64,000 bases of DNA from Glycomyces sp. TRM65418. GTDB taxonomy: Bacteria > Actinomycetota > Actinomycetes > Mycobacteriales > Micromonosporaceae. A model generated the notes under the pieces. That model was given only the letters and a program-made list of their open reading frames with translations, was not told the origin of the DNA and did no database searches. Shown one piece after another: positions 26,518 to 29,017 of this stretch (the stretch's first letter is position 1; each line of letters opens with the position of its first letter). A program made the translations under genes and the position numbers. The stretch spans positions 186,001 through 250,000 of the forward strand of contig NZ_JAJFAX010000007.1 in assembly GCF_019710475.1 (NCBI RefSeq), given 5' to 3'.

Positions 26518-26633
26518 GACACTCGGAGTCCCCTCAGCCGCATCCGCGGGCCCCCGACACCCGCGAGTGTGACCAACCCGCCTCACCAGCGGAGACGAAC
26601 GGGCGCCGGCCACGGACCGAAGGGCGGATCGGC

Positions 26634-26670
26634 GTGCTCAGCCGGGGGCGTTTCGCCCCCGGCTGAGCAC
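26634..26670 (-). terminator. 17-bp perfect hairpin ending the Tad operon
   Basis: Arms 26634-26650 and 26654-26670 are perfectly complementary with a TTT loop, 68 bases beyond the last Tad gene stop. Confidence 0.85.
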
Positions 26671-26737
26671 AGCGAACCGAAGCGGCCCGGCGGCTCGGCG
26701 GTGGCTCCCGGGCGGATCGGACCCGCCCGGGAGGCGC

Positions 26738-27130
26738 TCATTCGACCGCTACCGGGCCTGCCCTGGAGGCCGCTCGGGCCGGGCCGAAGACGGCCGGGAC
26801 CCCTGCGGGCGTCTCGTTCACGTGGACCGTCACCTCCAGACCGCTGACCTCGCATCCTTGGAACTCGGTCGACGAGCGCTCGGCCATCGCCTGCGCCGCC
26901 CCGCAAGCCGCCTCCTCGCCGAACAGGACCTTCGCGGCACCCGCCAGCGCGGCGGCGTCGGCCGCCCCTTGAGCCCGGTGCCGGGCGGCGCCGGCTTGAC
27001 CGACGGCGGTGAAGGCCACCGCCGACACCACCAACGCCGCCGCCACACCGGCCGCCAGGACCGTCGCCGATCCCCGTTCCTTCCCGTCCTTCGCGCAGCC
27101 GGTGACGCGATCGCCCTGCTGCGGTCGCAT
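26738..27130 (-). CDS. TadG/Rv3654c-like pilus-assembly protein
   Basis: A 130-residue protein with a membrane helix (about 22-46) followed by a short periplasmic-side domain containing two cysteines (EEAACGAAQ, FQGCEVSG). The segment RGSATVLAAGVAAALVV and the AQGAADAAALAGA stretch match the TadE/TadG-like proteins (Rv3654c type) that close actinobacterial tad loci. The ATG overlaps the preceding stop (ATGA). It is the last gene before a strong terminator. Confidence 0.82.
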   Translation of the reverse strand: MRPQQGDRVTGCAKDGKERGSATVLAAGVAAALVVSAVAFTAVGQAGAARHRAQGAADAAALAGAAKVLFGEEAACGAAQAMAERSSTEFQGCEVSGLEVTVHVNETPAGVPAVFGPARAASRAGPVAVE

Positions 27131-27756
27131 CAGGTCAGCCCCGGTTCCATCGGGGCGGCGGCCTCCGCGGAGACGGCCATCGGCGGCGTCAACGGGCCCA
27201 GCGGCCGCACCGGAGCGGTGACCACCGCCCGCACCACCGTGCCGTCGCCCGACACCGCGACCGACGCCCCGTCGGGCAGGTAGACGGCGGCGACCGCCTG
27301 CGGGTCCTCGCCTCTGGCCGCCGCGATCGCGGCGCTGTTGGCCGCGTCGATCGCGCGGACCTTCATCCCCACCGCCGACACCGCCCACAGACCGAGCGCC
27401 AGCACCGCCACTACGGCGGGCAGTGCCGCCGCCATCTCCGCGGTGACGAACCCGCTCTCGCGTCCCCTCCTCGCGCCGGCCGTGCTTCGGGCGCTTCGAG
27501 CAGGTGGCCCCGTCTCGGCGCACTCCTCGGATTCCCCGGATGCGGAGACTCGGGTCGTTCCGCCGCGACGGTCGGTTCGGGCGCCCGGTCTCGCCGGCCT
27601 CGGTGCTCCGGGTTTTCGGCCCCGATGTTTCGGGCGGCGACCTGGTGGCACCGCTGCGTTCGGTTCGGTTCCCCGATCGCGAGCCCGCGGTCCCACGCCG
27701 GAAGGCGGCGGGTCCGGCAGGGTCGGTCGGGGCGGCGCGCAGTTCGACGCCGTCAC
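27130..27756 (-). CDS. TadE-family minor pseudopilin with long Arg/Pro-rich N-terminal extension
   Basis: The recognisable part is the C-terminal 95 residues: a prepilin-type motif ESG-FVTAEM (cleavage after Gly, Glu at +5), a hydrophobic helix and a small domain with a DGASVAVSGDGTVVR stretch. In the frame that overlaps the upstream stop (GTGA) the protein is 208 residues, so about 113 Arg/Pro/Gly-rich residues come before the cleavage site, much longer than a usual leader. No better-placed start codon with a ribosome site exists inside this extension. Either the leader is truly long or translation starts inside; see findings. Confidence 0.75.
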   Translation of the reverse strand: MTASNCAPPRPTLPDPPPSGVGPRARDRGTEPNAAVPPGRRPKHRGRKPGAPRPARPGARTDRRGGTTRVSASGESEECAETGPPARSARSTAGARRGRESGFVTAEMAAALPAVVAVLALGLWAVSAVGMKVRAIDAANSAAIAAARGEDPQAVAAVYLPDGASVAVSGDGTVVRAVVTAPVRPLGPLTPPMAVSAEAAAPMEPGLT

Positions 27757-28379
27757 GACAGCGCCCGTTCGATCAGGGAGGACAGCGCGCTCTGGACCGG
27801 ACCCGAGGTGAGCACCTTCAGCAGCACGCCCGCGAAGGCGACGGCGGCGAGCGTGCCGACCGCATATTCCGCAGTGCTCATGCCGCTCTCGCCGCGCAGC
27901 TTCGCGGCGAACCGATCGCCCCAGCCGGGCTTGGTGACGCCCTGCATGCGGCCCGGGCTCCACTCGTCCTCGGCCCGGGAGCTCGGATTCGGGCGATGGT
28001 TCGTCGGCATCGGATCGTCGTCGACGACCGTCGGCGGGCCCGCGGTGATCGGGGTTCGGCTCCGGTTCGACCCGGGCGACCAGGGTTCGGCCGTTCGCGC
28101 TTCCCGAACGGCGTCGGTGCCTTCGGCTTCCCGCTCGGGGACCGGGCTGGTTCGGTTCGTCGACGTGCTGCGCTCGTCTTCGGGTGCGGGTGTGCGGCAC
28201 CGTTTGTCTTCGCATGCGGGTCGCGGGCATGCGCCGCCGGGTTCGCCAGTGGGCTTCCATCGGCTTTCGGGCCGGCAGGCGGCCTGATGCGGGCCGGGCC
28301 GGAAAGGCGCCGGGCGGGAGTCGCCGGTTCGGCCTCGCCGGGTCGGCGGTGCCGTGGCGGTGTGGGTGTTCGCGCTCAT
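27753..28379 (-). CDS. DUF4244 Flp-type major pilin candidate with long N-terminal extension
   Basis: The C-terminal 65 residues are the DUF4244 pilin: a basic stretch, then GESG-MSTAEYAVG, a class IVb prepilin cleavage site (Gly at -1, Glu at +5, Tyr at +6) and a hydrophobic helix. In actinobacterial tad loci this small protein is the probable Flp pilin. Here the only start with a good ribosome site (GAGAGGAC, 6 bases away) is ATG 28379, which adds about 165 Arg/Pro/Thr/Glu-rich residues before the cleavage site. Internal ATGs at 28010 and 27947 lack a ribosome site. Total 208 residues. Confidence 0.78.
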   Translation of the reverse strand: MSANTHTATAPPTRRGRTGDSRPAPFRPGPHQAACRPESRWKPTGEPGGACPRPACEDKRCRTPAPEDERSTSTNRTSPVPEREAEGTDAVREARTAEPWSPGSNRSRTPITAGPPTVVDDDPMPTNHRPNPSSRAEDEWSPGRMQGVTKPGWGDRFAAKLRGESGMSTAEYAVGTLAAVAFAGVLLKVLTSGPVQSALSSLIERALS

Positions 28380-28414
28380 CGCGGTGTCCTCTCTTCGGTT
28401 GTCGGGCAGTGCGG

Positions 28415-29017
28415 TCACATGCCGGAGGCCAGGGTGTCGGCGACGATGCCGAGCACGACCGGGCCGATGCCGGCGATCACGAACGCGGGCAGGAAGCACA
28501 GGCACAGCGGCCCGACCAGGGCCACCGCCGCGCGTCCGGCGCGTTCTTCGGTTCGAGTGCGGAGTTCGGTGCGGAGTGAGGCCGCGAGTTGTTCGAGCCC
28601 TCCGGCGATGGCGGCCCCGGAATCGCCGGAGCGATCGAGCTGGCGGGCCAGCCGCTCGGCTCCGGGAAGCCGCCCCAGTTCCGGCAGCGCCTCCGAGGCA
28701 TTCGCACCCAGGTGGATCGCTCCGGCGAAGCGGTTCAGGCGTTCGCCGATCTCCGGGTCGTCTGCCGCGGCCACGGCGAACGCCGCTTGGGTGAACGGCG
28801 CTCCGGCTCGCATGCAGGCGGCGAGCAGGTCGAGCGTCCAGGGCCAGGCCGGACCCAGGCGCTCGGCGGCAGCCCGTTCGACGCGGTCCGGATCGGACCG
28901 CAGGAGTCGCGCCACCAGCCACCAGGCGCCGAAGCCGGCCACGATGCCGATCACACCGCCGATGGCGACGGTGGTCGCGACACCCGCGAGCGGGCCGATG
29001 AGTTTGCGCAGCATCAT
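28415..29017 (-). CDS. tadC: TadC-like inner-membrane pilus assembly protein (T2SS-F family)
   Basis: A 200-residue polytopic protein of the GspF/T2SS-F family: one helix near the N-terminus (about 9-33), a cytoplasmic helical bundle (about 45-150, AACMRAGAPFTQA and LARQLDRSGDSGAAI) and two further helices at the end (VALVGPLCLCFLPAFVIAGIGPVVLGIVADTL). Two adjacent ATGs; the first overlaps the tadB stop (ATGA), the second is better spaced from GGGGAG. The platform protein pairs with TadB. Confidence 0.85.
   Translation of the reverse strand: MMLRKLIGPLAGVATTVAIGGVIGIVAGFGAWWLVARLLRSDPDRVERAAAERLGPAWPWTLDLLAACMRAGAPFTQAAFAVAAADDPEIGERLNRFAGAIHLGANASEALPELGRLPGAERLARQLDRSGDSGAAIAGGLEQLAASLRTELRTRTEERAGRAAVALVGPLCLCFLPAFVIAGIGPVVLGIVADTLASGM

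Follow-up and report, generated by a model that had tools for sequence, protein, structure and literature searches.

Two long predicted prepilin leaders encoded in a Glycomyces tad operon

Class III signal peptides combine a hydrophilic leader ending in Gly, a hydrophobic helix and a Glu at +5, a layout shared by the two pilins described below. Their leaders are regarded as short tags, and the finders for them look near the N-terminus, the motif usually lying within 35 residues of it, which is a usual range and not a strict rule (PMC3244431). Pilins with long leaders would consequently be missed, or given a wrong start, in annotation. The major pilins of S. sanguinis have ‘very long’ leaders in the words of one review (PMC10191384), and the five S. 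sanguinis leaders given in another paper span 8–18 residues (PMC6497953). In the Mycobacterium tad/flp gene set, Rv3656c is named Flp and Rv3655c TadE, and the Rv3656c polypeptide, at 68 residues in total as given there (PMC9531140), is shorter than either leader reported here. The same review places the prepilin leader in the cytoplasm (PMC10191384), so a leader can be long without having to cross the membrane, and its length should be no bar to insertion. Our literature search of open-licence papers turned up no description of prepilin leaders this large.

The window analysed here, a 64,000-nucleotide stretch of the 5.09-Mb genome of Glycomyces sp. TRM65418, carries a tad operon on its minus strand, in which profile matches give the order TadA, TadB, TadC, DUF4244, TadE, Rv3654c-like. 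TadC (28415–29017, PF00482) is followed by a DUF4244 (Flp-type) prepilin gene (27753–28379; 208 amino acids in its long form) and a gene for a TadE-like minor pilin (27130–27756; also 208 amino acids). PF14029 matched the DUF4244 protein over residues 156–208 (E 2.4e-24) with 84.9 bits, the Pfam gathering score being 27. Read in its correct frame, the TadE protein scored 67 bits with NF041390 (TadE_Rv3655c; curated NCBIfam cut-off 40), a model that matched all 20 aligned Glycomyces TadE members (E up to 0.01); the general Pfam TadE model did not match the TadE-like pilin. The Rv3654c-like pilin (26738–27130; TIGR03816, E 1.9e-24), a control from the same operon, has a leader of ordinary length, 20 residues as counted by eye. 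A strong, terminator-like inverted repeat (26625–26679; 26-nt arms, 3-nt loop) lies ~60 bases downstream of the operon’s last stop.

The first-pass annotation had proposed that these consecutive prepilins carry oversized leaders ahead of the cleavage sites G-MSTAEY and G-FVTAEM. Both sites held up, as did the lengths: we count 166 residues in DUF4244 and 102 in TadE, the latter a little under the ~110 first given. Gly at −1 (G166, G102) and Glu at +5 (E171, E107) are invariant in the respective alignments, and a hydrophobic helix is modelled in each protein, so both have the features of prepilins. The leaders lie far outside the usual range of up to 35 residues (PMC3244431). Mature DUF4244 pilin and stop occupy 27753–27881, the mature protein opening with MSTAEY (E5, Y6) and having AlphaFold-modelled helices at residues 169–190 and 193–207. 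A single A24 prepilin peptidase was found in the genome (L152:2427-3038), with WID and GFGD motifs. Its gene is on a different contig from both tad loci of this genome and adjoins an ORF that looks UvrA-like by eye.

DUF4244 translation can start at ATG 28379, 35 bases past the TadC stop, behind a Shine-Dalgarno sequence read as GAGAGG (28388–28393); the relatives displayed have a similar purine-rich element in the same place. The resulting leader spans 166 codons (27882–28379). TadE can start at GTG 27756, within the GTGA overlap with the DUF4244 stop, giving a leader of 102 codons (27451–27756). Among internal in-frame starts, ATG 28010 of DUF4244 and GTG 27696 and GTG 27651 of TadE (leaders of 82 and 67 residues) have no evident Shine-Dalgarno sequence, and ATG 27947 of DUF4244 has GGAG ten bases upstream. 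The claim that only starts far upstream are well supported thus holds for 28379 and the GTGA overlap but is slightly too strong about 27947. Codon-position GC in the window, 0.68/0.73/0.81 across the DUF4244 extension (weak bias) and 0.75/0.81/0.71 across the TadE extension (no third-position excess), was too weak a test of translation for a decision, so the window alone would not settle the matter; comparison across the genus does.

A DUF4244 locus is present in 21 of 22 Glycomyces genomes; the remaining one (G007) matches neither DUF4244 nor TadA and is uninformative either way. TadE comparisons cover 20 loci, one locus (L021) ending ahead of TadE. When the ATG with the best Shine-Dalgarno sequence 10–160 bases past tadC was picked blind to frame, it fell in the DUF4244 frame in 21/21 loci, at 20 different distances. 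The TadE frame is open from the ATGA/GTGA overlap to the mature start in 20/20 loci, with 19 distinct lengths, and its distance from the DUF4244 stop is 2 mod 3 in every one. DUF4244 leaders contain no in-frame stop in 2758 codons from 21 genomes (the five alternative frames have 19, 5, 9, 11 and 33), and TadE leaders none in 1278 codons from 20 genomes (30, 9, 6, 7 and 4). Both extensions are therefore kept in frame in all loci compared (21/21 and 20/20), free of the frameshifts and stops that the first-pass annotation had named as refuting evidence.

Substitution patterns point the same way. We compared 8 of 210 possible pairs (7 for the TadE leader), chosen by closeness before a tree was built; in the later tree, read by eye, the eight share no branch. 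In its own frame the DUF4244 leader had a pooled pN/pS of 0.64, with per-pair dN/dS of 0.43–0.85; the remaining forward frames gave 1.09 and 1.32, and the antisense frames 1.05, 0.74 and 1.35. For the TadE leader the in-frame value was 0.75, the remaining forward frames had 1.09 and 1.05, and the antisense frames 1.04, 0.80 and 1.11; the antisense frame at 0.80 makes the case for its translation weaker. The mature genes, too, have one antisense frame with lowish pN/pS, and their in-frame values are 0.19 (DUF4244 from residue 145 on) and 0.26 (mature TadE). Synonymous change dominated in 8/8 DUF4244 and 6/7 TadE pairs, as had been anticipated for translated extensions. GC at four-fold sites of TadE was 0.77 in the leader versus 0.93 in the mature part. 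In aggregate, translation of both long leaders is well supported by these comparisons, and the TadE leader looks like a translated segment under little constraint.

Both leaders are Arg/Pro-rich and, as suspected at first pass, apparently disordered: AlphaFold models of the two preproteins gave them low confidence (pLDDT ~50 in DUF4244) and no fold, and a Pfam search with six of the leaders found nothing at E up to 1. Tandem repeats in the window’s leaders were limited to two short, weak rows, one of them within the mature part of TadE. The lengths of the two leaders correlate at rho 0.41 (p 0.07), a link on which we do not rely.

The DUF4244 leader ranges from 89 to 238 residues over the 21 Glycomyces loci and contains recurring stretches: a TTxALPTRR-type N-terminal stretch, a Cys cluster, WSPGxNRxRTPITAGP (core WSPGxNRxRTPI), DEWSPGRM and KPSWGGKFASKMRGESG. 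The TTxALPTRR-type stretch and WSPGxNRxRTPITAGP are missing from some species. In the window, the alignment places the first W motif, WSPGSNRSRTPITAGP, at residues 100–115 (28035–28082), the second, DEWSPGRM, at residues 138–145 (27945–27968), and the membrane-proximal end, KPGWGDRFAAKLRGESG, with its Gly at −1, at 27882–27932. Ten residues are invariant in 21/21 loci (E139, W140, G143, M145, P151, W153, F157, R162, G163 and G166), and D138, E139, W140 and G143 are conserved residues that lie ahead of the internal Met at 27947, in support of translation from the long start. Two WSPG-type copies occur only in one well supported clade of 14 rows in the tree. A profile of the leader matched 21 of 22 Glycomyces genomes and had no convincing match in 79 others; one hit (G025, E 0.0095) lay ~63 kb from that genome’s DUF4244 match and was taken as chance. 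The conserved leader is thus a trait of Glycomyces, and its genus-wide motifs probably signify some function.

In Glycomyces the TadE leader (23% Arg pooled) has 10 to 161 residues and changes length in frame in 20/20 loci; its alignment shows no conserved motif, and ahead of the cleavage Gly the start is the only invariant column. At one locus (L011) it has 16 residues, and in the sister loci 61–63. Judged by their alignments, the two leaders differ in kind, DUF4244 with conserved modules and TadE with variable length. The earlier suggestion that such leaders act as anchors or binding sites accordingly fits the genus-wide modules of DUF4244 but not a TadE leader that is motif-free and can be as short as 16 residues beside sisters with 61–63.

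Outside Glycomyces we collected 124 distinct loci, of which 117 were used for DUF4244 leader length, the other 7 having no TadC call or no start; they are mostly best matches, rich in Micromonospora, and their counts are no fair sample of genera. By best start the DUF4244 leader has at most 35 residues in 105/117 (median 13), and in 78/117 it cannot exceed 35 residues at any start. Long DUF4244 leaders recur in a few other lineages, with unrelated sequence and no common motif, and great length by itself is therefore not necessarily a sign of function. One such leader (L056) contains repeats, another long one occurs at L145, and those of two Catellatospora loci (L144, L148) look acidic. At L056, L145 and L144, unrelated repeat-built leaders sit on DUF4244 or TadE, pointing to recurrent in-frame expansion.

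TadE outside the genus is in frame with an xTGA overlap start in 101/106 loci, its leader there having between 6 and 196 residues (mode 12). Counting against this reading of the start, 18 further loci have no such overlap, and TadE is out of the overlap frame in 5/106 loci (L106, L122, L123, L150 and L157), by a frameshift, an assembly error or use of another start. The longest TadE leader found, 196 residues with Gly/Ala-rich repeats, belongs to Catenuloplanes japonicus (L142). Growth of the TadE leader is thus common among relatives.

The reading we favour, with a probability of roughly 0.6, is that both leaders are translated, the DUF4244 leader being a disordered cytoplasmic pro-segment with binding modules and the TadE leader a product of tolerated length drift. 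The DUF4244 pro-segment would stay inside the cell as the hydrophobic helix inserts, N-in and C-out. Its modules would be the four-Cys cluster in its early part, the WSPGxxR motif in one or two copies, and the membrane-proximal KPSWGGKFASKMRGESG; conserved Trp and Cys modules in a drifting chain look like short binding motifs. Most likely, the still uncleaved segment would bind a metal or a partner in the cytoplasm and so control pilin delivery or assembly. The TadV-like A24 peptidase would then cut after Gly166, freeing the disordered 166-residue peptide whole. In TadE, in-frame insertion behind the stop/start overlap would lengthen the leader, and the drift may be tolerated since the leader lies in the cytoplasm and would be removed.

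A possible, if doubtful, alternative is that both leaders are translated but idle: weakly constrained tails that are cut off and grow by in-frame repeats, the DUF4244 motifs being slow-changing remnants. The long, unrelated and partly repeat-like leaders of other genera (L056, L144, L148, L145) agree with this, as do the broad TadE leader lengths both within and outside Glycomyces and the faster evolution of the DUF4244 leader than of its mature part (pooled pN/pS 0.64 versus 0.19). Idle tails would not, however, be expected to keep E139, W140, G143, P151 and W153 invariant over 21 species, or never to fall below 89 residues in DUF4244. Nor would their Cys count be expected to stay nearly constant over a 2.7-fold range of leader length (89 to 238): 4 in 13/21, 5 in 5/21, and 2, 6 and 7 in one each (mean 4.4, variance 0.95). 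The count is under-dispersed for leader length (P 0.0014, with kinship ignored), and Trp behaves alike.

Dual initiation is unlikely. Here one gene would yield two products, the long one initiated at 28379 and the short one, with an ordinary leader of 22 residues, at 27947, and their ratio would set the amount of export-ready pilin. The internal start, named in the first-pass annotation, is the Met of DEWSPGRM; an ATG occupies its position in 21/21 loci, and GGAG, a weak Shine-Dalgarno sequence, precedes it in the window and most relatives. Yet M145 is conserved no better than its neighbours, and GGAG is a by-product of Trp-Ser codons that is lost where Arg (L010, L017, L018, L019) or Ala (L021) is encoded.

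More improbable is that the DUF4244 leader forms a regulatory pro-domain of the metal- or redox-binding kind, whose four Cys and WSPG motifs would hold the prepilin back or dock it on a partner in the cytoplasm, and which, set free intact at ~18 kDa by each cleavage, would report pilin processing to the cell. The four clustered Cys of the window (Cys 35, 51, 56 and 61; 28197–28277) have counterparts in 18/21 Glycomyces loci, with at least four Cys within ~33 residues, and the cluster is missing in three (L003, L016, L019). C4 zinc knuckles and ribbons have two CxxC-like pairs at constant spacing; here the spacings vary (9-10-3, 9-4-4, 9-5-4, 3-5-9 and others), and we rejected that assignment. 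The inconstant spacing and the three loci without a cluster argue against a strict metal site. It is very improbable that the leaders are retained and the proteins are membrane-anchored cytoplasmic adaptors instead of pilins: cleavage of both is a prediction from sequence, which leaves room for the idea, but Gly −1 and Glu +5 are invariant in DUF4244 and TadE, and the genome encodes a TadV-like peptidase. Least credible of all is an untranslated DUF4244 extension that serves as leader RNA, with initiation only at 27947, an idea that draws on how weakly GC is biased by codon position from 28379 to 28100 of the window but conflicts with a frame kept in 21/21 loci across 20 different lengths, with 2758 codons free of stops and with a pN/pS lowest in frame.

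A conserved DUF4244 leader that is longer than its mature pilin, and genus-wide, makes regulation by a leader testable, and TadE leaders of 6 to 196 residues offer a natural length series for the tolerance of prepilin peptidase.

A second tad locus in this genome (L151:3552-8948) resembles the one in the window in having a Tad ATPase, a platform protein and small pilin-like genes in its ORF list, but there the leaders are short, ~15–27 residues by eye from Gly cleavage motifs; a large regulator-like ORF follows. DUF4244 loci of Micromonospora and other relatives have the same order, tadC, DUF4244, tadE, with TadE at an xTGA overlap, and a DUF4244 leader typically of 13 residues (for example, MRKLIARLRGDAG) in place of the window’s 166. 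The actinobacterial tad/flp locus of the Rv3654c-Rv3660c type shares PF14029, NF041390, TIGR03816, TIGR03819 and the cleavage motif with the window, and differs from it in that the window’s leaders reach 166 and 102 residues.
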